Origin: Acidobacteriota bacterium
Lineage (GTDB): Bacteria > Acidobacteriota > Terriglobia > Terriglobales > Acidobacteriaceae
Direction: 5' to 3'
NCBI GenBank assembly: GCA_025359885.1
Contig: JANYDG010000052.1
Coordinates: 1 to 52,562, forward strand
DNA length: 52,562 bases
Position 1 is the stretch's first letter. Each line of letters starts with the position of its first letter. This document shows positions 16,959-34,300 of the stretch, piece after piece. Made by a program: the position numbers and the translations under genes. Below the pieces are notes generated by a model, which ran no database searches, was not told the origin of the DNA, and saw only the letters and a program-made list of their open reading frames with translations.

Positions 16959-17026
16959 AACGCCAATTGGCGCTCATTTTCTCAGCTCACTTTGCACTCA
17001 CTTCGGCAAGCCCATCAAGAGGCCAC

Positions 17027-19300
17027 ATGAGATCAGGAACCCATCCCCGCGTTGTTGGTACGCCGCAACTCCGCAAAGAGGGTGTCGAAAAGGTGCAGGG
17101 TCGCACAAAATACATCGACGACCTGGAACGGGAAGGGATGTGGTACGGGGCCACGGTCCGAAGCACCATTTCTCGCGGGCGTGTTGTCGCAATCCACTAC
17201 GACCCGCGCATTGACTGGACGGAATTTGTCGTTGTCACAGCCGCGGACATACCAGGAAACAATCACATCCAGATGATTTCAGCCGACCAGCCATGTCTTG
17301 CAAACGGACACGTTAATCACTGCGACGAAGCTATTGTCCTGCTTGCTCACCCGGACAAGCGACGTTTGCCTGAAGCTTTGACTGCCATTCGAGTAGACTA
17401 CGAGCGCCTGCCGGCCGTGCTTTCGATAGAAGAGAGTGAGACCCAATTAGAAATTATCTGGGGACCGGATACCCATGAAGGCAATCTCTTTAAGCAGTTT
17501 TATGTAGAGAAGGGCGATGTTGATTCTGTCTGGGCCAACGCCTCGCATATTGTCGAGGGCGAATACCGGACAGGCGCGCAGGAGCACCTCTATATTGAAA
17601 ACAATGGAGCCATTGCCGAATTCAGCGAAGAAACCGGAGTTACAGTGTGGGGTTCCCTTCAATGCCCCTTCTACGTGCATAAGTCTTTAATGGCAGTTTT
17701 TAACTTACCCGCGGACAAGGTAAGAGTGATTCAAGTCGCCACTGGTGGAGCCTTCGGAGGCAAGGAGGACTATCCTTCAATCCTTGCAGCCCATGCAGGT
17801 CTTCTGGCAATGAAAGTCGGCCGCCCAATCAAACTAGTTTATGACCGCATGGAAGATCTTGCGGCGACAACGAAACGCCATCCTTCACGTACGCGGCACC
17901 GCACAGCCATCGATGAGAACGGCAAAATCCTCGCAATGGAAATCGACATCGCGACCGATGGAGGCGCCTATGCAACGCTTTCTTCGACCGTGCTTTCACG
18001 TGCAACCTTACACGCTACAGGGCCTTATGTGTGTCCCAACATTCGGATAACCGCCCGCGCGTGGGCCACGAATACCGTGCCCTGCGGAGCCTTTCGCGGC
18101 TTTGGCGCACCACAAACCATCTTTGCCATCGAAAGACACATCGAGCAACTGGCGCTCGCTGTAGGCCTGGACTCAGACGAAATTCGACGCCGCAACTTCC
18201 TGCATGACGGAGACTCCACTGCAACGCAGCAGGTGATGATTGAACCTGTAATCCTCGACAAACTCCTTGATCGTGCAATTGAAGTCAGTGAATTCCATGA
18301 GAAGCGGATTCAATTTTCCGGGGATAACCCATCCAGCCTGATTAAACGCGGGATAGGCCTTGCCGCGTTTTATCATGGCTCTGGATTCACCGGCTCGGGC
18401 GAACGCTATCTCAATTCGCTCGCAGGGATCGATGTAGCTCCAGACAACAAAGTGCGTGTACTGGTGTCGAGCACCGAATTTGGTCAGGGTACCAATACAA
18501 TCCTTGCGCAGATTGCGGCCGAGTCGCTGGGAATATCCTATGACGATGTCATAATGGCTCCTTGCGACACTGCAATCGTACCCAACAGCGGACCTACTGT
18601 CGCATCGCGAACATCGATGGTTGTGGGTAAACTCATCGAACGAGCGGGGAGCCAACTTATTGCGAGTCTCAAGTTGGAAGCAGGTCTTTTAGACTCATAT
18701 TCGACGCAAGATTTCTTCTCAGCCTGTGATCTTTACCGTGAACACAAAGGAAAAGTTGAATCTCTGAGCCGATACGAAGCTCCGCCGAACATCTATTGGA
18801 ACGACCAACTCTATCAAGGTGAAGCCTACCCCGCCTTTGCATGGGCCGTTTATGTCGCAGAAGTTGCAGTGGACACCACAACTTATTCCGCAGAAGTAAA
18901 CGCCTTTCATGCTGTGCAGGAAGTGGGAAGAGTCCTTAATCCCACTCTTGCCGCCGGGCAGATTGAGGGAGGCATCGCTCAAGGTATAGGTTACGCTCTT
19001 TATGAGAAAGTGCTATACAAAGACGGGCACATGTTCAACAACCAGATGACAAACTACATCATCCCGACAGCACAGGACATACCGCCGATCAATGTCTACT
19101 TTGAAGAGATACCCTTCGAGCATGGTGCCTACGGAGCAAAAGGCATTGGAGAATTACCCCATGACGGCCCAGCACCAGCTATTCTCAATGCAATTCAGAA
19201 TGCACTTGATCTAAGTTTTACTTCGATTCCTCTACTTCCCGAGGACATTTGCCTACGCATGACACAAGCTTCACATGCGATGTCACCGGTGTCCGCATGA
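17027..19300 (+). CDS. xdhA: Xanthine dehydrogenase, molybdopterin-binding subunit
   Basis: This is the large catalytic subunit that oxidises hypoxanthine and xanthine to urate. The 757 residues contain the aldehyde-oxidase a/b hammerhead (VQGRTKYIDDLE), the Mo-cofactor segments ATGGAFGGKEDYPS, CGAFRGFGAPQTIFAIE and STEFGQGTNTILAQIAAESLG, and the C-terminal GAKGIGELPHDGPAPA with the catalytic Glu. The ATG at 17027-17029 follows an AAGAGG motif; a TTG at 16967 would add 20 residues without conservation. It is the first gene of the operon, and its stop overlaps the Fe-S subunit start. Gene letters follow E. coli usage. No XdhC-type sulfuration chaperone is seen nearby. Confidence 0.93.
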   Translation: MRSGTHPRVVGTPQLRKEGVEKVQGRTKYIDDLEREGMWYGATVRSTISRGRVVAIHYDPRIDWTEFVVVTAADIPGNNHIQMISADQPCLANGHVNHCDEAIVLLAHPDKRRLPEALTAIRVDYERLPAVLSIEESETQLEIIWGPDTHEGNLFKQFYVEKGDVDSVWANASHIVEGEYRTGAQEHLYIENNGAIAEFSEETGVTVWGSLQCPFYVHKSLMAVFNLPADKVRVIQVATGGAFGGKEDYPSILAAHAGLLAMKVGRPIKLVYDRMEDLAATTKRHPSRTRHRTAIDENGKILAMEIDIATDGGAYATLSSTVLSRATLHATGPYVCPNIRITARAWATNTVPCGAFRGFGAPQTIFAIERHIEQLALAVGLDSDEIRRRNFLHDGDSTATQQVMIEPVILDKLLDRAIEVSEFHEKRIQFSGDNPSSLIKRGIGLAAFYHGSGFTGSGERYLNSLAGIDVAPDNKVRVLVSSTEFGQGTNTILAQIAAESLGISYDDVIMAPCDTAIVPNSGPTVASRTSMVVGKLIERAGSQLIASLKLEAGLLDSYSTQDFFSACDLYREHKGKVESLSRYEAPPNIYWNDQLYQGEAYPAFAWAVYVAEVAVDTTTYSAEVNAFHAVQEVGRVLNPTLAAGQIEGGIAQGIGYALYEKVLYKDGHMFNNQMTNYIIPTAQDIPPINVYFEEIPFEHGAYGAKGIGELPHDGPAPAILNAIQNALDLSFTSIPLLPEDICLRMTQASHAMSPVSA

Positions 19301-19800
19301 TTCACCCTTCGCATACGGTCCGCTTCACAGTGAACGGACAATCACGTTCAGTTGATGCTCCGCCGCTAAAACGGTTACTTGACGTGTTGCGCGAAGATCT
19401 CGCACTGACTGGCACCAAGGAAGGTTGCGGTGAGGGTGAGTGTGGATCTTGTTCGGTTCGCATCAACGGCGAACTCGTAAATAGTTGTCTAGTTCCAATC
19501 TTACAGGTCGAGGGGGCTTTTGTAGAAACAATCGAGGGGCTGTCTCAAGCCGATGTCATCGCTGAACTACACCCACTGCAGCAGGCCTTTCTCCAACGTG
19601 GCGGCGCGCAGTGTGGCATATGCACTCCGGGAATGCTTGTAGCTGCTGCACATCTTCTTTCACACACGCCAAACCCAACCCTTGAAGAAACTCGTGAGGC
19701 ACTGGCAGGCAATCTCTGCCGATGTACGGGTTACGTCAGGATATTTGAATCGATCCTTTCCCTGGCAGCGATGGAGGAACCAGCCGATCATGCGCGGTAA
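19297..19800 (+). CDS. xdhC: Xanthine dehydrogenase, 2Fe-2S subunit
   Basis: The small electron-transfer subunit, 167 residues. Cys44, Cys49 and Cys52 (GCGEGECGSC) with a later Cys form the plant-type cluster. QCGICTPGMLVAAAHLL and NLCRCTGYVRI hold the second, all-helical cluster next to the Mo centre. The ATG at 19297-19299 overlaps the preceding stop (ATGA). A longer frame from a TTG 48 bases earlier lies inside the large subunit gene and is unlikely. The order Mo, FeS, FAD is one of the usual three-subunit arrangements. Confidence 0.93.
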   Translation: MIHPSHTVRFTVNGQSRSVDAPPLKRLLDVLREDLALTGTKEGCGEGECGSCSVRINGELVNSCLVPILQVEGAFVETIEGLSQADVIAELHPLQQAFLQRGGAQCGICTPGMLVAAAHLLSHTPNPTLEETREALAGNLCRCTGYVRIFESILSLAAMEEPADHAR

Positions 19801-20668
19801 CCCTGCAACCCATCTATTCATTCGCCCTTCTAACCTCAACGGCATCCTTACATTACTTGCTTCAGAGCCGGGTCAGTGGACTCCTTTTGCTGGCGGTACT
19901 GAATTAATGGTTTCACATGCCGCTGGTCAACTCAGAGCTCAAAAACTGATTAATATCTGGGGTGTTCCAGAACTAAGCCGAATTGATATGGACGATAACT
20001 TTCTATCAATCGGAGGCGGCGTAACTTTCCGCCAGATTCGTGATCATGCAACAATCGCCTCTGAATTCCCCTTGCTTGCTCAAGCAGCTGGTTGGATTGG
20101 GTCCATTGCAAATCAAAGCCGCGCCACCCTTGCGGGCAACATCGTGAACGGCTCGCCAGCCGCCGATGCCCCCCCATCTCTGCTCGTCTATAACTCTGAA
20201 ATTGAACTCATCTCACAGCGCGGCGTACGACGTGTTCCCTACGCCAGCTTTCATGTAGGCTACAAGCAAAATATCCTCCGCATCGATGAACTTGTCTATG
20301 CGCTCCATCTGCCGCGACGCTTCACGACACATAACCACTATCTCCGCAAGGTGGGGGCACGTCGGGCAATGGCCATATCCAAGGTTGCGCTCGCCGCAAC
20401 AGCAGTTGTCAAGAACGACATATTTTTGGAGATACGACTAGCCGCGGCAAGCGTTGCCGACCGACCCGTGCGTTTGTTGATAACAGAAGCTGCTCTGGCT
20501 AATCAGCCATTGACTCATAAGACAATCGCGAATGCACGTATGGCCATCTACAACGAAGTGAAGCCCATCGACGACATCCGTTCGACAGCAGAATATCGGA
20601 GATGTGTAGCTGCCAATTTGTTGCAACAATTCATCATGCAATGCATTGCACGAGAGTATTCAAGATGA
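19790..20668 (+). CDS. xdhB: Xanthine dehydrogenase, FAD-binding subunit
   Basis: The 292-residue FAD subunit passes electrons from the Fe-S clusters to NAD or another acceptor. FAD-binding motifs are PFAGGTELMVSHAAG and SRATLAGNIVNGSPAADAPP. The C-terminal CO dehydrogenase flavoprotein-like domain is present (YLRKVGARRAMAISKVALA). The start is the ATG at 19790-19792, 11 bases inside the Fe-S gene, with GGAGG 12 bases upstream. A longer frame reading to 19682 has no conservation. The stop overlaps the next start. Confidence 0.9.
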   Translation: MRGNPATHLFIRPSNLNGILTLLASEPGQWTPFAGGTELMVSHAAGQLRAQKLINIWGVPELSRIDMDDNFLSIGGGVTFRQIRDHATIASEFPLLAQAAGWIGSIANQSRATLAGNIVNGSPAADAPPSLLVYNSEIELISQRGVRRVPYASFHVGYKQNILRIDELVYALHLPRRFTTHNHYLRKVGARRAMAISKVALAATAVVKNDIFLEIRLAAASVADRPVRLLITEAALANQPLTHKTIANARMAIYNEVKPIDDIRSTAEYRRCVAANLLQQFIMQCIAREYSR

Positions 20669-21174
20669 ACCTGACTCTCAAGGCATGGAATGATGCACCC
20701 AATGAAATCGCGATAGCTCCACTCCTCGATTGCTGCGCGTCACGCGAATGGGCACAACAACTCGTGTCAATGCGCCCCTTCCAGGATATGGAATGCCTGA
20801 TCAACGCCGCAAGCCAGGTCTGGGCGACGATGCAGGAAGCTGATTTGATGCAAGCTTTCCGGGCCCACCCGCGCATCGGCGAGCGCACACACACTCAGTC
20901 TACCGAGCAATTCATAACATGGTCACTCAAGGAACAGTCTTCAGCGAGCGATGTGGCAGAGGAAACGCTCCAAGCCTTGCGAAGTGGAAACATTCTCTAC
21001 GAGGAACAATTTGGTTTTACCTATATCGTCTGCGCAACGGGCAAATCAGCAGGTGATATGATCGACATTCTAAACTACCGATTAAGCAGCAACAGACAAA
21101 CGGAGTTGCTCGAGGCCGCCGAACAACAACGACAGATAACAGAGATTCGACTGCGAAAGTGGCTAAACATATGA
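20665..21174 (+). CDS. uraD: 2-oxo-4-hydroxy-4-carboxy-5-ureidoimidazoline (OHCU) decarboxylase
   Basis: The enzyme converts OHCU to (S)-allantoin, the last step of the urate-to-allantoin conversion. Its 169 residues show the family pattern MRPFQDMECLINAASQVW and then AFRAHPRIGERT, with the catalytic His. SLKEQSSAS follows, then FGFTYIVCATGKSAGDMIDI and EQQRQITEIRLRKWL. The ATG at 20665 overlaps the preceding TGA, and the gene's own TGA overlaps the next ATG. Confidence 0.93.
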   Translation: MNLTLKAWNDAPNEIAIAPLLDCCASREWAQQLVSMRPFQDMECLINAASQVWATMQEADLMQAFRAHPRIGERTHTQSTEQFITWSLKEQSSASDVAEETLQALRSGNILYEEQFGFTYIVCATGKSAGDMIDILNYRLSSNRQTELLEAAEQQRQITEIRLRKWLNI

Positions 21175-21500
21175 GCACCCTTTCGATACATGTTCTGGAT
21201 ACCGCACTTGGTAAGCCCGCCAGTGGTATTCACATTGTGCTTGAGCAGAGAGAACAATCAGGATGGCTGCCGATCGGTCGAGGATGTACTGACACCGATG
21301 GACGTTGCCGCAGTCTTTGCAACCAGATCGATTCTGGGACTTTTCGTCTGAACTTTGCAATGGAGGAATACTTCATCCGGCAGAATCGACAAAGCCTCTA
21401 TCCCGAGATAAGTATAACTTTCCGAGTGAATGGTGACGAACACTTTCATATTCCACTTTTAGTCAGCGACAACAGTTACACTACCTATCGAGGTAGTTGA
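21171..21500 (+). CDS. uraH: 5-hydroxyisourate hydrolase (transthyretin-like)
   Basis: It hydrolyses the uricase product 5-hydroxyisourate to OHCU. The 109-residue protein has the N-terminal LSIHVLDTALGKPASGI strand with the catalytic His, the DTDGRCRSL loop with the active-site Arg, and the C-terminal YRGS signature that completes the active site. The ATG at 21171-21173 overlaps the uraD stop. Confidence 0.95.
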   Translation: MSTLSIHVLDTALGKPASGIHIVLEQREQSGWLPIGRGCTDTDGRCRSLCNQIDSGTFRLNFAMEEYFIRQNRQSLYPEISITFRVNGDEHFHIPLLVSDNSYTTYRGS

Positions 21501-21520
21501 CTTGACAAGGAGATTGACGG

Positions 21521-22363
21521 ATGGCTTCTCTGGGACTTAATCGTTATGGCAAGGCGCGCGTGCGGGTAATGAAAGTAGTGCGGTACGACGATTTTCATGA
21601 AATGAAGGAGTGGAGCGTAAAAGTGCTGTTGCAAGGCAACTTTGAGACATGTTTCACTCAAGGGGAGAATCACAATATATTACCTACGGATACAATCAAG
21701 AATACGGTCTATTCCTTGGCCAGGGACTCCACATCGTCCACGCTCGAAGACTTTGCCACCGAACTTGTTGCCTATCTACTGGCCAACAATCCCCAGGTTT
21801 CACAAGCCGCCGTCGAAATAGAAGAGAAGAACTGGCGGCAATTGCTCATCGATGGTGAGCCCCATGCCACAACATATGCAATCGCTGGGCCGGAAGTGAA
21901 GACTACGGAGGTACTGGGAGAAAGAGGCTCAGCACTCAAGATAAGTTCCGGCATCGACGGCCTGGTAATTCTGAAAACGACAAAGTCTGCTTTCACGGGG
22001 TACATCAAAGACAAGTTCACAACTCTCCCTGAAAGTACTGATCGCATTTTTGCTACGCGCGCAACAATTACTTGGGAATATGACACTCTCCCAAGTGACT
22101 ATGAGAGAGCGAGGGCGTCAGCTATCGAATCACTCTTGAAGACATTTGCTGAGCACGACAGCCTGAGTGTGCAGCACACGTTGTATGACATGGGGGTTGC
22201 CCTGTTAGCAGCAGTGCCAGAAGCACAGCGTGTAAAACTAACAATGCCAAACCTTCATTGTCTTCCGGTTGATTTAAGCCGATTTGGGCAGAACAATCCA
22301 AACCAAATATTTGTCCCAACCGATGAACCACATGGCTACATTGAAGCTGTCATCGAGCGATAG
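21521..22363 (+). CDS. uox: Uricase (cofactor-free urate oxidase)
   Basis: It oxidises urate to 5-hydroxyisourate with O2. The 280-residue protein has the first T-fold motif YGKARVRVMKV (active-site Lys) and LPTDTIKNTVYSLARD (active-site Thr). SDRIFATRATITW-like and LHCLPVDLSRFGQNNPNQIF segments follow, the latter with the third catalytic His; the Lys-His-His/Tyr of many family members reads Leu-His-Cys here. A strong AAGGAG motif lies nine bases before the ATG. This gene has the only clear spacer in the middle of the operon (20 bases after uraH), and its own ribosome-binding site suggests higher expression. Confidence 0.92.
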   Translation: MASLGLNRYGKARVRVMKVVRYDDFHEMKEWSVKVLLQGNFETCFTQGENHNILPTDTIKNTVYSLARDSTSSTLEDFATELVAYLLANNPQVSQAAVEIEEKNWRQLLIDGEPHATTYAIAGPEVKTTEVLGERGSALKISSGIDGLVILKTTKSAFTGYIKDKFTTLPESTDRIFATRATITWEYDTLPSDYERARASAIESLLKTFAEHDSLSVQHTLYDMGVALLAAVPEAQRVKLTMPNLHCLPVDLSRFGQNNPNQIFVPTDEPHGYIEAVIER

Positions 22364-22373
22364 GTGAATAGAC

Positions 22374-23765
22374 ATGGCTCTGCTTATTCAAAACGGCGAG
22401 ATTGTTACCGCTGATTCTCGTTATTTCGCAGACATCTTCGTTGAGGATGAAACCATTACCCGAATCGGAAGTAACCTTGAGCTGCCCCCAGGAACTGAAG
22501 TCGTAGACGCCCGAGGATGCTTGATATGTCCTGGTTTCATCAATCCGCATGTACATATTTACTTGCCCTTCATGGCAACTTTCGCGAAAGATACTCACGA
22601 GACAGCGAGCATTGCGGCTCTGATGGGCGGCACCACCACTTTCATCGAAATGTGCTGCCCATCGCGGCTGGATCACGCGCTGGATAGTTATTATTTATGG
22701 AAAGAGAAGGCCCATAATCACAGCGCCTGCGACTATGCATTTCACATGGGAGTCACGCGTTGGAATGATGAAACCGAGTCACAATTGCGAAGGATTGTGG
22801 CAGACGGTACATCTTCATTCAAAGTATTCCTTGCGTACAAGAATTTTTTTGGCATTGAGGATACTGAGCTGTTTCAGACACTCCGACTTGGCAAAGAAAT
22901 GGGAGTCATCACGGCGGCCCATTGCGAGAATGCAGAAATTGTAAGCCGATTGCAGACTTATCTTCTGAGTGTTGGAAAAACAGGTCCCGAATGGCATGAA
23001 CCGAGCCGACCTGAAACAGTGGAAGCAGCGGGGACTCATCGCTTCGCAGCATTTGTAGAGTTAACCAAAGCTCAAGGATATGTGGTTCACCTTTCCTGCG
23101 CTCCGGCGCTTGAAGAGGCCGCACGCGCAAAGCAGCGCGGTGTGCGCCTTGCAATTGAGTCTGTGCTACCTCACTTTCTACTGGATAATAGTTTGACAGA
23201 GCAGCCTGGGGTTGAGGCAATGAAGTACGTGATGTCTCCACCACTACGAGACAGGAGAAATCATCGATCACTTTGGAACGGGCTTCGATCGGGAATTATT
23301 GATACTGTTGGCACAGACCATTGTCCTTTTGACCTAGCGCAGAAGGGGCTGGGCGAACTGGCTTTCACGGATATCCCTAACGGCATTCCCGGGATTGAGG
23401 AACGAGTCAGTCTGATGTACACACGCGGCGTTGTCACTGGCCAGATCGATATTCATCGCTTTGTAGATGCCTTGAGTACGCGAGCAGCAAAACTCTTTGG
23501 ACTCTTCCCTCGCAAAGGAACGATTGCGCCCGGCAGCGACGCTGACTTGGTTGTCTTCGACCCGACGTATCGTGGGATTATTTCTGTCAAGACGCAGCAT
23601 ACTCAAAATGACTACAACGCCTTCGAAGAGTTTGGCGTCAAAGGTCGTGCTTCTGTAGTGACGGTGCGCGGTAAGGTGCAAGTTCGCGACGGAGTCTTTG
23701 TCGGTGATCGGTTTCGGGGGCGCTTCCTGGCGCGCGAACCGATAGGAGATACACATGGTGAATAA
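22374..23765 (+). CDS. Cyclic amidohydrolase of the dihydropyrimidinase type, likely allantoinase
   Basis: A 463-residue metal-dependent amidohydrolase. Metal ligands are HVH (INPHVHIYLPF), the carboxylated Lys in SSFKVFLAYKNF, His in AHCEN, His in YVVHLSCAPAL, and Asp in GTDHCPFDLAQKG. The last motif, with IPNGIPGIEERVSLMYTRG and FPRKGTIAPGSDADLVVFDP, is closest to dihydropyrimidinases/hydantoinases, not classic AllB. Its place between uricase and allantoate amidohydrolase argues for allantoin ring opening. Hydantoin or dihydropyrimidine hydrolysis remains possible. The stop overlaps the next gene by 11 bases. Confidence 0.85.
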   Translation: MALLIQNGEIVTADSRYFADIFVEDETITRIGSNLELPPGTEVVDARGCLICPGFINPHVHIYLPFMATFAKDTHETASIAALMGGTTTFIEMCCPSRLDHALDSYYLWKEKAHNHSACDYAFHMGVTRWNDETESQLRRIVADGTSSFKVFLAYKNFFGIEDTELFQTLRLGKEMGVITAAHCENAEIVSRLQTYLLSVGKTGPEWHEPSRPETVEAAGTHRFAAFVELTKAQGYVVHLSCAPALEEAARAKQRGVRLAIESVLPHFLLDNSLTEQPGVEAMKYVMSPPLRDRRNHRSLWNGLRSGIIDTVGTDHCPFDLAQKGLGELAFTDIPNGIPGIEERVSLMYTRGVVTGQIDIHRFVDALSTRAAKLFGLFPRKGTIAPGSDADLVVFDPTYRGIISVKTQHTQNDYNAFEEFGVKGRASVVTVRGKVQVRDGVFVGDRFRGRFLAREPIGDTHGE

Positions 23766-25011
23766 CAGAAGTTTCGACCCACACGTGGCAGTTGAACTTT
23801 TGCGCGAGCTCCGCCATCTTACTGCCGATGAAAGCGGCGCCCAAAGGGTTGCATTTACGGAAACCTGGAGCGCAGCTCGTAATTGGTTTCAGAGCAAGCT
23901 TGTAGGCTTTCCGTTTGAGTATCATCGCGATGCTGCCGGAAATCACTGGGTTACTCTCAAAGGTATCTCTGACCGCGTGTTGATTATTGGTAGCCACCTG
24001 GATTCGGTACCCAATGGAGGATGGCTTGATGGAGCGCTGGGAGTTTTAGCGGGCTATGCTATTCTCTATCACTTCGCCATCTCGAAAGTAACTCCGGCGG
24101 TCACAATTCGTCTCGTAGACTGGGCAGATGAAGAGGGTGCCCGCTTCGGACGAAGCCTTTTCGGTTCTTCTGCATTTGCTGGGACTCATTCAATCGAGGC
24201 TGATCGAGGTCGGACAGACAAGACAGGCGTCAGCCTTGAGTCTGCTCTGGCTGAGATCGAAATTGACATCGATAAGATCGGCGAAGCTTCAAACGAGAGG
24301 GCTAACGCACGGGGTTACCTTGAATTACATATCGAGCAAGGTCCAGTGCTGGAGAAGCTGGGACTATCACTTGGTGCAGTCACTGGAACCAAGGGGGTTG
24401 AGCGTCATGTCATTGTTTTTCGGGGGCAGGAGGCGCATTCTGGGTCAACACCAATGACGCTTCGCCGCGATGCCCTTGCTGCCGCAGCAAAACTTGCGCT
24501 GGAGATTCGTCAGATCGCCATGAAACATGTAGATGCAGTTTGCACGATGGGTAGTTTGAAGACTTATCCGGGCATCGTAACCGCTGTCGTGGGGCGTGCC
24601 GAGGCAACACTTGATCAGCGCGACCTTGATGCCCATGTACTAGCGCATATGCTTCAGGAGGCAAAGACGGCAAGCGATCGATTTGCTGCGGAAGAAGGCT
24701 GCTCCGTGGAGTGGTGCCGTATCTGGAATATTGAGCCTTTGCCTTTCCATCCAGAACTGATTGAGTTATGCGAAGAAGCTATACGCGAAATAACCGGGGC
24801 CTCGTATCGTTTGCCATCGGGTCCATTGCATGATGCGGCCGAGGTGTCGCGTCTCGGAATTCCGACGGCGATGATGTTTGTGCAGTCTTTGGGGGGTATC
24901 AGCCATAACTGTATTGAAGATACCCGCGAGGCAGACTTACTGCTGGCCTTGCGAGCATTCCATCTACTGACTGTGAAGACTATCCTATGGATTGCATCTC
25001 AACCTGACTAA
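23755..25011 (+). CDS. allC: Allantoate amidohydrolase (M20/HyuC family)
   Basis: A 418-residue Zn/Mn-dependent hydrolase that releases ammonia from allantoate. Ligand motifs are GSHLDSVPNGGWLDGALGV, WADEEGARFG, ELHIEQGPVLE, and a C-terminal His in GGISHNCIEDT. The dimerisation-domain segment is GQEAHSGSTPMTLRRDA. The same fold serves N-carbamoyl amino-acid hydrolases; the operon favours allantoate. It is the last gene of the purine cluster; ureidoglycine and ureidoglycolate enzymes are not in the window. Confidence 0.9.
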   Translation: MVNNRSFDPHVAVELLRELRHLTADESGAQRVAFTETWSAARNWFQSKLVGFPFEYHRDAAGNHWVTLKGISDRVLIIGSHLDSVPNGGWLDGALGVLAGYAILYHFAISKVTPAVTIRLVDWADEEGARFGRSLFGSSAFAGTHSIEADRGRTDKTGVSLESALAEIEIDIDKIGEASNERANARGYLELHIEQGPVLEKLGLSLGAVTGTKGVERHVIVFRGQEAHSGSTPMTLRRDALAAAAKLALEIRQIAMKHVDAVCTMGSLKTYPGIVTAVVGRAEATLDQRDLDAHVLAHMLQEAKTASDRFAAEEGCSVEWCRIWNIEPLPFHPELIELCEEAIREITGASYRLPSGPLHDAAEVSRLGIPTAMMFVQSLGGISHNCIEDTREADLLLALRAFHLLTVKTILWIASQPD

Positions 25012-25295: not shown

Positions 25296-25329
25296 CTTCA
25301 GGTCAGCTTAAGCCTTAGTCGTTGATAAT
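25296..25329 (+). promoter_or_regulatory. Candidate response-regulator box and -10 upstream of the regulator gene
   Basis: CTTCAG (25296-25301), five bases, CTTAAG (25307-25312), followed after 11 bases by a -10-like GATAAT (25324-25329). Tandem six-base half-sites with a five-base gap are typical of OmpR/PhoB-type regulators such as PmrA and QseB. The same arrangement recurs at 27554-27570. The box lies where a -35 element would be. Confidence 0.6.
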
Positions 25330-25335
25330 ACGTTC

Positions 25336-26067
25336 ATGCGGGTCCTGCTTATTGAAGACGAAGTTCGTCTGGCCGAAAACGTCGCCTCTGCCCTGCGCGA
25401 CGGTCCCGGATTTGCGGTGGATTGCGCCCGGGACGGTGAGATCGGCCTCGGGCTGGCGCGCAATCTCTGCTACGACCTCATCATCCTTGATTTGATGTTG
25501 CCCCGACTTGACGGACTTTCGGTGCTTAAGCGACTTCGCAGCCGGCAAGACCATACGCCGGTGCTGGTCGTTACCGCGCAGAGTGAAGTTGGCTCGACCA
25601 TCACACTGCTCAATTGTGGCGCGGACGACTACCTGAGCAAGCCATTTGACCTGGGTGAATTGCTGGCCCGCGCCAAGGCGCTGATCCGGCGTGGAAAAGG
25701 CGTAGCCCACCCCACCCTGCAGGCGGGCGAACTGGTGCTGAACACTCTCGAACAAACCGTGCTACGCGCTGGCAGCGAGATAACGCTGTCGCCAATGGAG
25801 TACCGCATTCTTGAGTACCTGATGCACAGGCCCCGAGTCATTGTCTCCAAGCAAGAGTTGCTTGAGCATTTATACGATTACAATTGGCAGCATCACTCCA
25901 ACGTGATCGAAGTGCACGTCTCGAATCTGCGTAAAAAGATCACCAGAACAGACGAAGCGCTGGCATCTGGGACAAGTATTGAAACGCTGCGCAACCGCGG
26001 CTATCGCCTATTGCTAAGCCGCACGCCGGGAACTTACGCAGACGACGGCAGGGACGGCGAAGCGTGA
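25336..26067 (+). CDS. OmpR/PhoB-type response regulator
   Basis: A 243-residue two-component regulator. The receiver domain has the acidic pocket Glu7-Asp8, phospho-acceptor Asp52 (IILDLMLPRLDG), Thr in VVTAQSEVG and Lys in YLSKPFDLGELLARA. A winged-helix DNA-binding domain follows (LSPMEYRILEYLMHRPRVI, then VHVSNLRKKI and RNRGYRLLL). Its stop overlaps the sensor kinase start by four bases (GTGA). A CTTCAG-N5-CTTAAG box in its own promoter suggests autoregulation. It probably controls the efflux genes that follow. Confidence 0.95.
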   Translation: MRVLLIEDEVRLAENVASALRDGPGFAVDCARDGEIGLGLARNLCYDLIILDLMLPRLDGLSVLKRLRSRQDHTPVLVVTAQSEVGSTITLLNCGADDYLSKPFDLGELLARAKALIRRGKGVAHPTLQAGELVLNTLEQTVLRAGSEITLSPMEYRILEYLMHRPRVIVSKQELLEHLYDYNWQHHSNVIEVHVSNLRKKITRTDEALASGTSIETLRNRGYRLLLSRTPGTYADDGRDGEA

Positions 26068-27530
26068 AAGCCTACTCTATCACCCGCCGCCTCATCATAA
26101 TGGTCCTGTTGGTTGAGCTGTGCTCGGCTGTTTGTGTAAGTGGTGTTGCGTACATTTATGAGCGACACGACCATTTTCGTGCGTTTGACATTCTTCTCAG
26201 TGGGCGCGCCGACTCAGTAGTGGGTGCGGTGCAAAGTTCCGACGACGCCCAGGATAGCCTGATGCTCGACGGGAGTGAGATCGATATTCCACATGACGAC
26301 ATTTACGATGTCCGCGACGCTACAAATCGGGTGCTGGGTCACTCTGCCGAGGTGGTCGACTTTGCCCAGGCCTTTCGGCCAAGCCCCAGCCGCGCCGACA
26401 AGATTGACCCGGACGGCGACGAGGCATCTTTCGGCAACGTCGAGTTCCACGGCAAGGCATATCGCGTCATCCGCGTCCTGGGTGTGAGGGTGATTGATCC
26501 AGGCGAAAAGGGGGGCATGAGACGAACTGTCGTTGTCTACTATGGCTCGCCAGTGCATCGAGTCTGGAAGGCAATCTACCGCGCAGTAACGTTCTACGCG
26601 CTCAGCAGCCTCGTCGTGCTGGCGGTAACGGGAGTACTTATGTCGTGGCTGCTCAATCGCGGGCTGGCGCCGCTGCGCGCACTGGCTTCGGGCGCGGCGG
26701 CAGTTTCAGTCACCTCGTGGACATTTGATGCGCCTGCGTCAGCGCGGATGACGCGTGAACTCTCTCCCCTCGTCAATGCTCTCGAAAGCCTGCTGCTCGG
26801 TTTGCAACAGTCCTTTGAACAACAAAGGCGATTCGTCGGCGATGCAGCTCACGAATTGAAGACAAGCGTAGCTGTTCTCAAATCCTCATTGCAATTGCTG
26901 GGGATGAAGCCACGCAGCCAACAGGAATACCACGCAGGACTGGAGCGCTGCCTGCTGGATTGCCAGCGGATGGAGCAGTTGGTTGCCCAGATGCTTACGC
27001 TGGCCCGCATCGAGGAGACAGACGCCAAGAGTGCCGGGGAGCATAGCTCCGATATCTATGCCTGCCTGCAAGATGTGAGCTCGCAACTTGTTACCATGGC
27101 CGAGGCCAATGAAATTCACCTCGTACTAGTTGGCGAAGACTCGTTGTACGCAGCGCTGGACCCCGGTCAATTGAAACTGTTATGCACAAATCTGCTCATG
27201 AATGCCATGCAGCATAGCCCTTCGGAGTCTGTCGTGACCGTCAAGGTTGGAAAGACTGACGGCTTTGCCGAGATTCGATTCTGCGATGCCGGCGACGGTA
27301 TTGACGCAGCAGATCTGCCGCGAATTTTCGAGCGCTTTTCTCGAAGCGACCCCTCTCGCAGCCGCAATACTGGTGGTACAGGCCTGGGCCTCGCTATTTG
27401 CAAAGCCATCACAGACAAATGTGGTGGAGCGATTAAGATCAGCAGTGAAATACGGAATGGTACCACCGTTCTCGTCCGCATTCCCCTTTCAAGACCAGGC
27501 CGGGTCGATGCGGTGCAACCGCTTTCATGA
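26064..27530 (+). CDS. Sensor histidine kinase
   Basis: A 488-residue membrane kinase. TM1 is near residues 9-32, a sensor domain of about 140 residues faces the periplasm, and TM2 is near 180-200 (YALSSLVVLAVTGVLMSWLL), followed by a HAMP-like segment. The H-box is FVGDAAHELKTSVAVL with the phospho-accepting His; the usual Pro after Thr is Ser. The N-box NLLMNAMQHSP, G1 DAGDGID, F-box FERFSRSD and G2 GGTGLGLAI are intact. GTG start inside the regulator's stop. The signal is unknown; an acidic loop rich in Asp could bind cations, which is speculation. Confidence 0.94.
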   Translation: MKAYSITRRLIIMVLLVELCSAVCVSGVAYIYERHDHFRAFDILLSGRADSVVGAVQSSDDAQDSLMLDGSEIDIPHDDIYDVRDATNRVLGHSAEVVDFAQAFRPSPSRADKIDPDGDEASFGNVEFHGKAYRVIRVLGVRVIDPGEKGGMRRTVVVYYGSPVHRVWKAIYRAVTFYALSSLVVLAVTGVLMSWLLNRGLAPLRALASGAAAVSVTSWTFDAPASARMTRELSPLVNALESLLLGLQQSFEQQRRFVGDAAHELKTSVAVLKSSLQLLGMKPRSQQEYHAGLERCLLDCQRMEQLVAQMLTLARIEETDAKSAGEHSSDIYACLQDVSSQLVTMAEANEIHLVLVGEDSLYAALDPGQLKLLCTNLLMNAMQHSPSESVVTVKVGKTDGFAEIRFCDAGDGIDAADLPRIFERFSRSDPSRSRNTGGTGLGLAICKAITDKCGGAIKISSEIRNGTTVLVRIPLSRPGRVDAVQPLS

Positions 27531-27553
27531 CAAAACAGTGAATGTGGAGAATT

Positions 27554-27586
27554 CTTCAGGCCGGCTTAAGCTTGAAGTGGAATAGT
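27554..27586 (+). promoter_or_regulatory. Second CTTCAG-N5-CTTAAG box, upstream of the efflux operon
   Basis: CTTCAG (27554-27559), five bases GCCGG, CTTAAG (27565-27570), then a -10-like AATAGT at 27581-27586, ten bases on. Sequence and spacing repeat the box before the regulator gene (25296-25312). It lies 24 bases after the kinase stop and about 60 bases before the propeller gene, a good site for direct activation of the pump operon by the regulator. Confidence 0.6.
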
Positions 27587-27631
27587 AAGGGGAACGGTGC
27601 AGAGCCCGACTAAACTGATTTGGAGAATTGC

Positions 27632-28681
27632 ATGACGATGAAGCAGATCTTTAACCAGCTGACCAGGTTCAGCATGGTTGCCGCTATGGCAGTAACAGCC
27701 ACGGTACCCGCAGTGATGACAGCGGCCGCACAAAAGCCTTATACGATTCAGGACAAGTGGACTGTCGGCGGCGAAGGCGGATGGGATTACCTGGCGGTCG
27801 ATTCCGCAACCCACCACCTCTTCGTTACGCACGGTGCCCGTGTCGAGGTGCTGGACCTGGCCAGCGGCAAACCAGTCGGCGCAATCACTGGACTCAAGGG
27901 CACGCATGGCGTCGCCTTTGACACCAATGGCAAGCTTGGCTACATCAGCGATGGACGCGCCAATGCTGTCGTCGTGTTTGACCGCACCAGCCTCGCCACT
28001 TTGGCGACGATTCCTGTGGGCATCAACCCAGATGGCATCCTCTTCGAGCCAGTGACCAGGACGGTCTGGACCTTCAACGGCGGCGGCAAGAATGCAACCG
28101 TGGTAGATTCCGCGACCCAGAAAGTGATTGGCACAGTAGCCCTCGCTGGCAAGCCCGAATTTCCCCAGGCGGACGGGGAGGGCAACATCTACGACAACAT
28201 TGAAGACAAGAATGAGATTGTTCGGATCGACGCCAAAGCTCAGAAGGTAACGGCCAGTTGGCCTGCCTGTGAATCTCCCTCGGGCCTTGCGATCGACTTG
28301 GCTGGCCACCGCCTCTTCGCAGTATGCGATGGCAAAAAGATGGCGGTCGTTGACTACAACACCGGCAAGCTGCTCGCCACGCCGGCTATCGGTGATGGCC
28401 CCGACGCCGTAAGCTACGATGCCAAACAAAAGCTGGTCTTCTCATCGAACGGCGAAGGTACGATGACCGTGATCGATGCCAGTGGCAGCGATTACAAGGC
28501 CATTCAGACTTTGTCGACACAAAAGAGTGCGCGCACCATGGCTTTTGACGAAGCTACAGGCCGGGCATTCCTCGTTGCAGCCAGGTTCGGCCCGCCGCCT
28601 GCGCCAACAGCAGCCAATCCCCGGCCCTGGCCCTCGGTTCTGCCCAACACGTTTGTGGTCCTTGTCGCGGGTCATGAATAG
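27632..28681 (+). CDS. Secreted YncE-like beta-propeller protein
   Basis: A 349-residue exported protein. After a signal peptide (SMVAAMAVTATVPAVMTAAA) come repeated blade motifs such as LAVDSATHHLFVTHGARVEVLDL, VAFDTNGKLGYISDGRANAVV and VSYDAKQKLVFSSNGEGTMTVIDA. These match the YVTN/YncE-type propeller. The ATG at 27632 has GGAG six bases upstream. It is the first gene of the efflux operon; the TolC-like gene begins inside its last codons. Its job is unknown: ligand binding, or a periplasmic assistant of the pump or sensor, are possibilities. Catalytic residues cannot be assigned. Confidence 0.87.
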   Translation: MTMKQIFNQLTRFSMVAAMAVTATVPAVMTAAAQKPYTIQDKWTVGGEGGWDYLAVDSATHHLFVTHGARVEVLDLASGKPVGAITGLKGTHGVAFDTNGKLGYISDGRANAVVVFDRTSLATLATIPVGINPDGILFEPVTRTVWTFNGGGKNATVVDSATQKVIGTVALAGKPEFPQADGEGNIYDNIEDKNEIVRIDAKAQKVTASWPACESPSGLAIDLAGHRLFAVCDGKKMAVVDYNTGKLLATPAIGDGPDAVSYDAKQKLVFSSNGEGTMTVIDASGSDYKAIQTLSTQKSARTMAFDEATGRAFLVAARFGPPPAPTAANPRPWPSVLPNTFVVLVAGHE

Positions 28682-30122
28682 GCTCGCCAACAATCTGAGA
28701 GGCAAAGGAGGCGTTCTTCTGAAGTGCGCCTCCCCGAGCCTCCCTACCCCCTTCTGCCTCACGTTGGGCGGTCTCGCTTGGTCGGGGATGGCCTTGTCAG
28801 CGCTGGCATTTTTTTGCACCGCGTCGTCGGCGCAAAGTGTCGAGGCTGTCGAGGCAGTTCCCCCCAACCTGGCCGTGCCCGCAACGACGGGCCAGATCAT
28901 CACCCTGGACGAAGCAATTGCGCGCGCCAGGATGAATGAACCCAATTTTGCCTCCGCTGTCGCCGCCGCCAAAGTTGCGAACCTCGACCATGCTCTGGCG
29001 CGTGCTGCTGTTCTTCCGAGCGTTGTGTACCATAACCAGTTTCTCTACACCGAACCCCATCATGCCAAGGGCCAGGATACCAACCAGCCTCCGCGATTCA
29101 TTGGAGGCAACGCAGTGCATGAATATACCAGCCAGGCAGTTGCGACGGAGACGATCGGCCTGCAGGGGATCACTGCAGTTGCCCGGGCATCGGCTGCCTC
29201 ATCGATTGCAAATGCAGGGCTTGAGATTGCGCGTCGCGGTCTCATTTCGACCGTCGTAACGCTTTACTACAGCGCGCTCGCGGCAGATCAAAAGCTCCTC
29301 GTCGCCCGGCGGGCTGCAGATGAGTCTGCCAATTTCATGACGCTCACGCAGCATCGCGAAGATGCGCGCGAATCAGCCCACGCCGACACCATCAAGGCCC
29401 AGTTGACCGACCAGCAGCGCAGACGCGACCTGTCCGACGCACAGTTGGCCAACGAAAAAGCGCACCTCGACCTCGCGGTTTTACTCTTTGATGACCCGCG
29501 AACCGTTTACACTCTGGTACCGTCTGCGCCAAACGAGTTGCCTGTTCGCATAGAAGCTGAGGCAGCTGCGGGGCGGCACAACCCTGACCTCGAAAGCGCA
29601 CTGGCGACGCTGCACGCCGCTTCCCTCGATGTTGTCGGAGCCCGAGCCGGCTACTTGCCCGACCTGAGCCTCAGCTTCAACTACGGCATCGACGCACAGC
29701 AATTTGCTATTCACGCGCCCGATGGCTCGCGGAATCTCGGCTATTCGGCATCAGCCACCCTCGACATTCCAGTCTGGGACTGGTTTTCAATCCACGACCG
29801 CGTCAAGCAAAAGACGAGTCTGCGTGAGGCTGCCCGCGTAACGCTGACCAATACGCAACGCACCCTCATCGCACAATTCAACGAGGTCTACAACGAAGCC
29901 AATGCCGCACACGACCAGTTGCAATCACTGGCCGATAGCGCGGCAACAGCTCGCGAGAGTCTTCGACTGACCCGGTTGCGCTACACTGCCGGGGAGGCCA
30001 CCGTGCTCGAAGTTGTTGACGCCCAGTCCTCCCTGACAGCCGCTGAAATTGCACGCGAAGACGGAAACGTCCGCTATCAGACGGCATTGGCCAACCTGCA
30101 AACTCTGACTGGAAACCGCTAG
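28674..30122 (+). CDS. TolC-family outer membrane efflux protein
   Basis: Outer-membrane channel of a tripartite pump, about 482 residues. After an N-terminal hydrophobic export signal (GLAWSGMALSALAFFCTASS) there are two related halves of the outer membrane efflux protein family. They are recognised by ITLDEAIARARMNEP near the start and RLRYTAGEATVLEVVDAQSS near the end, with long coiled-coil helices between. The ATG at 28674 overlaps the propeller gene's end. A longer frame reading upstream lies inside the propeller gene and is not credible. Confidence 0.92.
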   Translation: MNRLANNLRGKGGVLLKCASPSLPTPFCLTLGGLAWSGMALSALAFFCTASSAQSVEAVEAVPPNLAVPATTGQIITLDEAIARARMNEPNFASAVAAAKVANLDHALARAAVLPSVVYHNQFLYTEPHHAKGQDTNQPPRFIGGNAVHEYTSQAVATETIGLQGITAVARASAASSIANAGLEIARRGLISTVVTLYYSALAADQKLLVARRAADESANFMTLTQHREDARESAHADTIKAQLTDQQRRRDLSDAQLANEKAHLDLAVLLFDDPRTVYTLVPSAPNELPVRIEAEAAAGRHNPDLESALATLHAASLDVVGARAGYLPDLSLSFNYGIDAQQFAIHAPDGSRNLGYSASATLDIPVWDWFSIHDRVKQKTSLREAARVTLTNTQRTLIAQFNEVYNEANAAHDQLQSLADSAATARESLRLTRLRYTAGEATVLEVVDAQSSLTAAEIAREDGNVRYQTALANLQTLTGNR

Positions 30123-30125
30123 CCC

Positions 30126-31397
30126 ATGCTCACACCGCTCCGCCCAGCCTCCATTCACGTCCTGACTGCATGCGCGCTGCTGTTTGCCGTTGGCTGCCGC
30201 AAGGCAGAGGTCGCGCCGACACCGGAAGTTTCCGTTCAGGCTGCACAAGCCCATATTGGCGACATCTCTGAAGAGACTGATGCCGAGGCCACGCTTTCCC
30301 CACTAGCACAGGCTGCAATCGCCCCTAAAGTTACGGCACCAATCAAGCAGTTGCTGGTGCAGCGCGGGGCGAGGGTCAAGGCCGGGCAGCTCCTGCTCAC
30401 CCTTGAAGCAGCTGACCTGGCCGCCGCCGCTCTTGACAACCAGGGCACCTACACCGCTGCCAAGGCTGGCTACGAGACAGCCACCCACGCCTCAGTTCCC
30501 GAGGACTTCACCAGGGCGCAGCTTGATCTCACCCAGGCAAAGACCAATCTCGACCTGGCGCAAAGCATAGCCACAGCGCGAGCCCAGCTCTTCAAAGAGG
30601 GTGCAATCCCGGGTCGCGATCTGGATACTGCGAACGCTTCGCTGGTGCAGGCCCAGGCTGCCTATGACATTGCCAAGCTGCACTTCGAGGGGGTACAAAA
30701 GACCACCAACAAAGCTTCTCTTGAGGCAGCCAAAGGCCAACTTCAATCTGCCCAGGGAAAGCTTCAGGGTGCGCAGGCTCAGCTCAGCTACACTGAAATT
30801 CGCAGCCCCATCAATGGCGTTGTCACCGACCGCCCACTCTTTGCCGGGGAAACTGCCGCTGCGGGTGCGCCAGTAATCACGGTCATGGACACGTCGGCGC
30901 TGATTGCCAAGCTGCATATCTCTCAAATTCTCGCCCAGCAGCTTACAGTTGGCGCGGCCGCCACCATCTCCGTCCCGGGGATAGCCGATCCGATCGACGC
31001 CAAAATCTCCCTCATCAGCCCCGCTCTTGACCCTGGCAGCACCACCGTTGAGGTCTGGCTCCGTGCCGAAAACCCCAAAGCGACCTTAAAGGCTGGAACC
31101 CCCATTCATGCCACGATCACCGGACGGACTGCCTCGAAAGCGCTGATTATCCCGAGTTCAGCGTTGGTCACCGCGCCCGACAACAGTAAATTTGTGATGG
31201 TCATCGCCCCTGATTCCACGGCCCACAAGCATCCCGTCACCCTGGGCGTGGTCACCGATACGCAGGCCCAGGTCCTCTCCGGGATCACCGCAGCTGATAC
31301 GGTCATCACCGTGGGCGGATATGCGCTCGATGAAGGAACCAAGGTAAAAATCGGAGCCGCAGACGACAAGGGTGTCAAAGGCGGAGACGACAAATGA
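30126..31397 (+). CDS. RND efflux periplasmic adaptor lipoprotein (HlyD/MFP family)
   Basis: A 423-residue adaptor that joins the inner-membrane pump to the TolC-like channel. The lipobox LLFAVGC gives lipid attachment at about Cys24. It has barrel-sandwich lipoyl halves (KVTAPIKQLLVQRGARVKAG and YTEIRSPINGVVTDRPLF), an extended alpha-helical hairpin rich in Ala/Gln between them, and a C-terminal beta-barrel (GTPIHATITGR). It is three bases after the TolC-like gene and overlaps the pump gene start by four bases. Confidence 0.94.
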   Translation: MLTPLRPASIHVLTACALLFAVGCRKAEVAPTPEVSVQAAQAHIGDISEETDAEATLSPLAQAAIAPKVTAPIKQLLVQRGARVKAGQLLLTLEAADLAAAALDNQGTYTAAKAGYETATHASVPEDFTRAQLDLTQAKTNLDLAQSIATARAQLFKEGAIPGRDLDTANASLVQAQAAYDIAKLHFEGVQKTTNKASLEAAKGQLQSAQGKLQGAQAQLSYTEIRSPINGVVTDRPLFAGETAAAGAPVITVMDTSALIAKLHISQILAQQLTVGAAATISVPGIADPIDAKISLISPALDPGSTTVEVWLRAENPKATLKAGTPIHATITGRTASKALIIPSSALVTAPDNSKFVMVIAPDSTAHKHPVTLGVVTDTQAQVLSGITAADTVITVGGYALDEGTKVKIGAADDKGVKGGDDK

Positions 31398-34300
31398 CTT
31401 CGCCCACGCCAACGCCTGAACACCACCGGCCTTTCTGGCTGCAGCACATCTCGCACACGATCTTCTTCTTCCTGGTGGCTCTGACCCTGGGCGGCGCCTA
31501 TGCTGCATTCCAGGTGCCCATCGCGGTTTTTCCGGATACCAACTTTCCGCGGGTTGTGATCGGCATCGAAAACGGCGTAATGCCCGTTGAGCAGATGCAA
31601 GTGGCTATCACCAAGCCAGTCGAGGATGCCGTCAACTCCGTCCCCGGCCTGCGAACTGTTCGCAGCACCACAAGCCGCGGCTCGGCCGAAGTCAGCCTCT
31701 TCTTTGATTGGAATGCGGATATGTTCCACACGCTGCAACTGGTGGATGCAGCGCTATCAAAAGTGCAGCAGACCCTTCCCTCGACCGCACGTATTACGAC
31801 CAATCGCCTGACATTTGCGACATTCCCCATCCTCGGATACGCCCTTACAGCCGATGACCGGGGAGCCAATACCGCTTCGCAGACACGTCTTTGGGAAATC
31901 GCGACCTACGACCTCAAGCCGCCGCTCAACCGGGTTGAAGGCGTAAGCACCGTCACTGTGCAGGGCGGCAAGGTTCCTGAGTACCACGTCATTCCTAATC
32001 TGTCGCGGCTCCAGGCCTCGGGTATCACTCTCACTGACCTGGTCAACGGCATCCAGTCCTCGAATATTATCGACTCGCCCGGCCTCTATGAAGCCGACCA
32101 TCAGCTTATCCTCGGCCTCATCGGGTCACAGGCGCACTCCGCCGAGGACCTGGCCGCGCTGGTCATCAAGACCACGCCCGCTGGTGCCCCTATCCGTGTG
32201 GCCGATGTCGCGCAGGTCGAGTCGGCATCGCTTCCCGTCTACACCGCCGTTACCTCCAATGGAAAACCCTCCGTCCTCCTGAATATCGCCCGCCAGCCTT
32301 CATCGAACACCGTGCAGGTCGCCAACGCGGTCGCTGCCAAAGTTGCGAACCTGCAACCCAGTCTCCCCGCTGGCGTGCACCTGGTTCCCTTCTATGACCA
32401 GTCACAACTGGTTCGCGAATCGATCGCCAGCGTCCGCGACGCCATTCTCATCGGCCTCGGACTTGCCTGCCTCATCCTTTTTCTCTTCCTCCATGACTGG
32501 CGTTCCTCGGTGGTTGCGGGGCTGGTCATCCCGGTCACCGTCGCCGTAACGATCCTCTTTCTCTGGCTCACCGGGGAATCCTTCAACTTGATGACGCTGG
32601 GAGGCCTCGCCGCCGCTATTGGACTCGTGATCGACGACGCCATCGTCGTGGTCGAAAACATCGTCGTCCATCGCGATGCTGGCGAAAACCGAATCCATGC
32701 TGTCCGCAAGGCGCTCAGCGAAATCACCCTGCCTCTGGTCGGTTCCACGATTACACCAGTCGTTGTCTTCTTGCCGCTCATTGCAGTCACCGGCGTCACC
32801 GGCAGCTTCTTTCGCGCGCTGGCCATCACCATGACCGCCGCACTGCTCACCTCCCTGATGCTGGCACTCACCTGGACCCCGGCGTTGTCTCTCTTCCTGT
32901 TGCGGACCAAACACGAAACCAGTGAAAGTTGCGGGCCAGACTCGAAAGCGACCCACATCCCTACAGGAAAGTTCATGAGCCGCGTACTCTCAGCCCATGC
33001 CAGTGCGCTTCATTGGGCGCTGGCCCGGCCCACCATGGTTGGTTTGCTCTGCCTGGGGCTCGTTTTAGGCGCTTACTTCGGCTATTCCGCTCTCGGCTCT
33101 GATCTGCTTCCAGCGATGGATGAGGGCGCCTTCATCCTCGACTACACCATGCCCGCCGGCAGTTCACTCACGGAAACCGAACGCGTACTCCAGCACGTGG
33201 AACGGATTCTTCACGAAACTCCAGAAGTCGATGTCACCTCGCGCAGGACTGGCCTGCAGATGGGCCTTGCCGCAGTCACCGAAGCAAATTATGGTGACTT
33301 CACTGTACGCCTCAAAGCCAAACGCTCCCGCCCGATCGACGAAATCATGGCCGATGTGCGCAGCGAAATCAAAAAGACCGAGCCCGAGCTGGACATCGAG
33401 TTTACCCAGGTTCTTCAGGACATGATTGGAGATCTCTCAAACGCTCCTGAGCCAATCCAGATCAAGCTTTTTTGCAACGACCAGGGAGTGCTCAACGCAC
33501 TCGGCCCCAAGGTTCAGGATGCCATCGGGAAGATTCCCGGCGTAGTCGATACCCAGAACGGCATCGACAACACAATCAGCGGGCCAGCGACAATCTTCAA
33601 CGTAAGCCCTCTTGCTGATAGTTTTGGCTTCACCCCTGCAGAAATTGCCCAGGACGCCACTGCAATTCTGGATGGCCTTCCGACCGCTGACCCCCTCATC
33701 GTCAATGGACGACCCTATACGATTCGTGTCCGGCTTCCGGAGTCGAATCGAGCGTCGTTGAACACCATTCAGAATACTGTCTTCAACTCGTCAAGCGGGC
33801 ATACGGCGACCCTGGGCTCACTCGCACAGATCACGCAGTTGCCGCCGCAAAACGAGATCAGGCGCGAAAACCTGCAGCAGCTCATCGTAGTTACCGGCCG
33901 ACTTGAAGGTTCGGATCTGGGTACCGCGATGACCAGGGTTCGGGCAACCGTTGAGGGACTTCATCTACCCTCCAACATCCGCGTTGAATACGGCGGTACC
34001 TATGAAGAGCAGCAAAAGTCATTCCGCGACCTCCTTCGCGTTCTCATCATGGCCTTGATTCTGGTCTTTGGCGTGTTGCTGGCGGAGTTCCGCAATTTTT
34101 CTGCACCCGTAGCCATCCTCACCAGCTCGATCTTGTCGATTGCCGGGGTGGTGCTCGCGCTGCTTGTAACCAATACGAGCTTCAATGTCGCCAGTTTCAT
34201 GGGCGTAATCATGGTGATCGGGATTGTCGCCAAAAACGGCATTCTCCTTCTTGACGCCGATGAACGCCTGCGCGCAGCCGGTCTGCCTCCTGTCGAAGCC

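Follow-up and report, generated by a model that had tools for sequence, protein, structure and literature searches.

A tandem box shared by a two-component regulator gene and a beta-propeller-RND pump operon in Acidobacteriaceae is a predicted operator of the regulator

BqsR, the response regulator of the BqsRS (CarRS) system of Pseudomonas aeruginosa, is an activator whose operator is TTAAG-N6-TTAAG. The promoter that was analysed in detail has its downstream pentamer overlapping the -35 element, and spacers of 5 or 7 bases drop the output of the operator to less than 10% (PMC4682146). The gene of the sensor BqsS has genes for PepSY proteins as neighbours (PMC12714742). The boxes given for PmrA of Salmonella have the form CTTAAG-N5-XTTAAT (PMC3973317), and the crystal structure of PmrA on DNA shows base readout by Asn188 and Asn196, with Arg210 inserted into the minor groove (PMC4660055). 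QseBC of E. coli, whose regulator is of the same superfamily as the one studied here, has CTTAAC-N5-CTTAAG between ygiW and qseB. The CusR box is an inverted repeat.

The window, that is, the whole stretch of 52,562 bases that was analysed, contains a response regulator gene of the OmpR/PhoB type (25336-26067, 243 aa, called from profile matches) and a sensor histidine kinase gene (26064-27530) whose GTG start overlaps the regulator stop. The following gene encodes a YVTN-type beta-propeller protein (27632-28681) with a TIGR02276 repeat score of 37.9 bits (cut-off 27.85) and a signal-like N terminus; GGAGA at 27622-27626 is its possible ribosome-binding site. It is the first gene of a predicted pump operon, which continues with a TolC-family outer-membrane channel (28674-30122; PF02321, 149.3 bits, cut-off 22), an RND periplasmic adaptor (30126-31397; TIGR01730, 188.2 bits, cut-off 94.9) and an RND permease (31394-34534; PF00873, 741.1 bits, cut-off 28). 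Neighbouring genes from propeller to permease are joined by overlaps or by gaps of a few bases, as read from the sequence, which is the form of an operon; the tolC start, which overlaps the propeller stop, was itself picked from the sequence reading. All of these genes, including the regulator and the kinase, are on the + strand. Just upstream of the regulator, positions 16967-25011 hold genes which we take, from the list of open reading frames, to be xanthine dehydrogenase-like, hydantoinase-like and allantoate-amidohydrolase-like. A regulator-kinase pair adjoining an RND operon is a likeness to CusRS and CzcRS, and CusS is among the structural matches of the window sensor. Membership of the regulator in the CusR/CzcR heavy-metal family was considered and rejected, with a TIGR01387 score of 168.9 bits against a cut-off of 279.2. 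The best NCBIfam match of the kinase is a heavy-metal kinase model at 195.3 bits, below its cut-off of 292.55. For the permease, drug-type models score above the CusA/CzcA models, yet both cut-offs are missed.

Two boxes on the + strand frame the regulator and kinase genes. Box 1 (CTTCAG-GTCAG-CTTAAG, 25296-25312) is a predicted tandem operator in the regulator promoter, based on its sequence and its conservation in the genus. Box 2 (CTTCAG-GCCGG-CTTAAG, 27554-27570) is a predicted tandem operator before the propeller-pump operon, based on its sequence and on relatives. The initial annotation had described these two boxes as having identical half-sites and identical five-base spacers; the positions, the strand and the half-sites are as described, whereas the spacers share their length and 3/5 of their letters. 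The lone CTTAAG at 25525-25530, which it had set aside, is indeed within the regulator coding sequence and has no partner at N5. Read as pentamers, the window boxes are TTCAG-N6-TTAAG, with the head-to-tail arrangement and the 6-base gap of the BqsR operator as published. The spacing and the downstream pentamer are identical to that operator, and the upstream pentamer is one base off TTAAG. The half-site length and the N5 gap are also those given for PmrA (BasR), although the first half-site in the window is CTTCAG. The box is most likely a BqsR/PmrA-type tandem operator of the regulator, as judged from its sequence. The earlier assignment to the form bound by OmpR/PhoB-type regulators such as PmrA and QseB is supported; the regulator passes neither the PmrA nor the QseB family cut-off, and apart from the one changed base the geometry is also that of the BqsR operator. 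As a PmrA family member the regulator scores 169.8 bits against a cut-off of 330, and as a QseB family member 140.5 bits against 345.

The exact form CTTCAG-N5-CTTAAG occurs twice in the window and not once in 100 dinucleotide shuffles. The looser pattern CTTMAG-N5-CTTMAG has 5 matches in the 4.2 Mb of the window's own genome, and its reversed control also has 5. Summed over 15 genomes of the genus there are 50 matches versus 40 in the reversed control. Since these counts are close to those of the reversed control, the pattern alone means little and its placement is the non-random part: only two of the five matches have the exact form, and these are boxes 1 and 2, which are 2.3 kb apart on the same strand and each ahead of a gene start. 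The genome scan that had been proposed for the box thus bears out a non-random placement but not a genome-wide enrichment.

The regulator was searched in 61 genomes (its own and 60 relatives), with 42 matches at E<=1e-40, and the regulator promoter was read in 30 loci, 11 from the genus and 11 at order level (f2). Absence of the box at orthologous loci had been named in advance as the outcome that would count against the reading. The box is present before the regulator in 11/11 genus loci (9 strict, 2 one base off), 40 and once 39 bases ahead of the start codon, and GATAAT follows in 11/11, placed 11 bases past the box and 6 (once 5) before the start. A strict box was found in 0/11 order-level loci, and the box thins out with phylogenetic distance. 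The arrangement box-N10..12-GATAAT-N6-start occurs in 8/250 family genomes, every time at the regulator gene, with no match for its reversed control in the same 250 genomes. A weight matrix built from 14 boxes of the first loci was then applied to 40 other family loci, which were hand-picked, mostly from the upper part of the list, out of 126 genomes with a regulator match. In the 100 bases ahead of the regulator, 21/40 of these held-out loci reach a score of at least 14, against 0/2280 random 100-base stretches of the same loci; the remaining 19/40 score below 14. Named records with the next closest regulators after G011 include Paracidobacterium, Edaphobacter, Granulicella and Terriglobus. 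Four genus genomes (G004, G005, G009 and G012) have no regulator match. In G012 the start of the regulator is present with the box and GATAAT intact and the gene is cut short: the regulator promoter, the box and about 28 codons stand directly ahead of tolC-adaptor-RND (G012:C448 545-1023, L181). Neither the remainder of the regulator nor the kinase is present at this locus, which may be a deletion or a misassembly.

The presence of a box at the end of the kinase gene goes with the genes that lie beyond it. In the held-out loci a kinase-end box (score of at least 14, from -60 to +200) is found in 20/38, compared to 0.09% of 2280 random 260-base stretches; G194 and G205 were dropped from this count for a truncated kinase gene or kinase flank. 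A narrower version, taking only the sequence downstream of the kinase stop, finds the box in 8/39 loci. If a target is taken to be a propeller, tolC or PepSY-like gene in the same orientation as the kinase and at most 500 bases past it, the kinase-end box is present in 20/22 loci with a target and in 0/16 without one (Fisher p = 7e-9, uncorrected for shared ancestry, which the box counts across loci ignore throughout). A second set consisted of 12 of the 13 held-out loci in which the permease faces the other way, plus G033; G194 was left out since its contig ends too soon. In this set the relocated tolC has its own box, scoring at least 14 within about 300 bases, in 11/13 loci, and the other two score 11.3 and 9.2. 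By comparison of the sequences, the box appears to belong to the target gene and to move with the pump through rearrangements. It could be argued that box 2 is a by-product of the 3' end of the kinase gene and box 1 a coincidence, as the second box does overlap the end of the kinase gene in some relatives. This explanation has almost no probability: the place of the box shifts between -32 and +165 relative to the kinase stop, the box is missing from all the loci that lack a target gene after the kinase, and the family-wide pattern, the held-out loci, the dependence on a target and the relocated tolC genes all contradict it.

The regulator is an OmpR/PhoB response regulator, with a receiver domain (PF00072, 94.7 bits, cut-off 30.2) and a winged-helix DNA-binding domain (PF00486, 77.5 bits, cut-off 26.2). 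The boxes have the form of an OmpR/PhoB site, in sequence form only, in that tandem direct half-sites 11 bases apart replace the -35 element. The equivalents of PmrA Asn188, Asn196 and Arg210 are N189, N197 and R219 in the window regulator, and they are kept in 56, 53 and 56 of 56 aligned proteins. The alignment includes the window protein and was made via E. coli BasR, with numbering one lower than in PMC4660055. A difference from PmrA is His195, which is Ser196 in 56/56 aligned regulators, and QseB has His at the position of N197. Among solved structures the DNA-binding domain matches a CarR (9yfa) best, a further likeness to BqsRS (CarRS). The three exceptions at N197 (G018, G023 and G025) carry N197G together with H194Y in the recognition helix. 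In the boxes of G018 and G025 the first half-site contains TTAAG, and in that of G023 it does not, which may be a lead. In the kinase, residues 1-269 are confidently modelled as an alpha/beta periplasmic sensor. Unlike BqsS/CarS, the window kinase has no periplasmic ExxE motif in residues 34-185, whereas the motif is present in 18/48 aligned kinases.

Each box is followed by a -10-like element at the distance that had been noted earlier. The -10 element GATAAT (25324-25329, + strand) begins after 11 bases from box 1 and ends 6 bases before the ATG at 25336. After box 2 there is an extended -10-like element, TGGAATAGT (27578-27586, + strand), whose hexamer AATAGT (27581-27586) is 10 bases past the box. 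The hexamer is poor (4/6) and has TGG ahead of it in the manner of an extended -10; TGGAATA is found at the same distance from the box in G011, G010 and G003. In the E. coli pmrR promoter CTTAAG-GTTCA-CTTAAT is followed by CATACT 10 bases on, the same distance as at box 2, and pmrR is activated by PmrA. Among 41 regulator-side and 36 kinase-end boxes scoring at least 12, training loci included, -10-like hexamers (at least 4/6) at offset 10 or 11 were counted in 27/41 and 18/36, respectively, and in the held-out loci only in 15/27 and 12/22. Offsets of 5|6, 15|16 or 20|21 give at most 5. The best TTGACA match at the right distance is below the shuffled level and none is conserved; the place of a would-be -35 falls mainly in the variable spacer of the box, and the box consensus is asymmetric, CTTCAG then CTTAAG. 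Since the box stands where a -35 would be, it most likely represents the layout of a class II activator, so that the sequence suggests an activating role. The covered -35 position could also be read as repression, with the regulator bound over the -35 and blocking polymerase until the kinase signals. This is improbable, because without a -35 hidden under the box there is little to repress, and BqsR activates from its known operator of the same geometry in the promoter described (PMC4682146). The regulator message looks leaderless, since there is no room for a leader and no visible ribosome-binding site. An in-silico survey puts leaderless genes at 9.7-19.4% in the three Acidobacteria that it covers (PMC3160421).

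The analysis makes it very probable that the boxes are operators of the regulator at 25336, which would activate its own gene and, separately, the propeller-tolC-adaptor-RND operon. The kinase of 26064 would phosphorylate the regulator, and the phosphorylated regulator would occupy the two half-sites as a head-to-tail dimer. With the half-sites in the place of the -35, the regulator would recruit RNA polymerase to the -10 element 10-11 bases downstream. At its own gene, transcription would start at or next to the start codon and give an mRNA with no leader, while the pump operon would be activated from a leadered promoter. The control of the regulator over itself and the pump operon, which had been predicted from the two boxes, is supported by conserved boxes at orthologous loci. 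Its pump part is refined: box 2 does stand before the operon, the first gene there is that of the beta-propeller protein, and a third box occurs elsewhere in the genome. The mechanism itself would be an ordinary one and is well supported by the comparison of loci.

These boxes might instead serve another member of the OmpR/PhoB family that prefers the same half-site, with the neighbouring regulator as a mere target. Two genomes are consistent with this: G012 keeps the box despite its truncated regulator gene, and G005 has a weak box (score 14.1) and no regulator match. PepSY-like loci point the same way, as the box is present at 4/12 of them in genomes that have no close regulator. Such a regulator is nevertheless quite improbable. 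The box is on the regulator's own promoter throughout the genus loci, the contact residues of the regulator fit the half-site, and none of the stretches before 12 other response-regulator genes of the own genome (G000) and G011 has the box (best score 9.9; six weaker partial matches were left out of this control). Among G000-G024, six genomes with no regulator at 1e-60 (G017, G019-G022 and G024) have no box scoring at least 14 before the best propeller and tolC genes found in them. G009, also with no regulator match, has no box, and its propeller gene is cut by the contig end. G012 and G004, where the box is before a PepSY-like gene, have boxes, and both genomes are incomplete.

Operator control by the regulator may extend to further genes. 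The third box of the own genome (CTTAAG-CCAGG-CTTAAT, G000:C61:5003-5019, - strand) precedes a propeller paralogue (L186), and no relative of the regulator or the kinase was found at E<=1e-4 on this 15 kb contig. Orthologues of the paralogue, searched in 41 genomes at E<=1e-80, have the box in 4/4 genus genomes where they were found and in 0/3 others. PepSY-like genes were found in 43/250 genomes, and in 15/30 of the loci read a box is present no more than about 170 bases upstream. "PepSY-like" is a weak call, with Pfam PepSY_like below its cut-off in G002 and G016 and above it in G051. In G016 and G051 the box lies between the kinase and a PepSY-like gene downstream of it. The box is present in 11/18 PepSY-like loci with a regulator (E<=1e-60) versus the 4/12 without one (p = 0.26); regulator presence does not predict the box at these genes. 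Boxes before PepSY-like genes in some relatives are a likeness to BqsR, given the PepSY proteins described beside BqsS. Unlike BqsRS, the targets here include an RND pump and beta-propeller proteins, and a search of the window's own genome with the PepSY-like query gave no match at E<=1e-10, a threshold that distant PepSY proteins would escape. In G010 (G010:C1:2554549-2554603, L171) two divergent boxes are 21 bases apart, about 3 kb from the contig end, and one of them faces a propeller gene fragment.

Taken across the family, the box recurs at the predicted promoters of regulator, propeller and tolC genes, and roughly half of the PepSY-like genes read also have it. The sequences define a predicted new regulon with an operator of a known kind. 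Among the papers listed, titles and abstract openings point to none on a two-component operator or regulon from acidobacteria, passages of two Granulicella papers gave none either, and little regulatory work was found for this phylum. The operator is predictable base by base and natural rearrangements serve as its controls. The box offers a testable operator, a handle on the beta-propeller protein and a route to finding the signal via the two promoters. A broader and rather speculative view is that the box defines an envelope regulon of Acidobacteriaceae that is mobile: the RND pump, several beta-propeller proteins and PepSY-like targets would be plug-in units shifted around the genome with their own copies of the operator, the kinase would receive periplasmic feedback from the secreted propeller and PepSY-like proteins, and the regulator message would be leaderless. 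If so, the regulator would still be translated when ordinary initiation is limited.

TTCAG-type tandem sites also occur in another phylum. Three Shapirobacteria loci (L302, L303 and L313) have such sites at -38 upstream of a regulator homologue, with scores of 10.8, 15.8 and 11.1, and TATAAT-like elements come next, close to the start codon, in a layout like that of the window.
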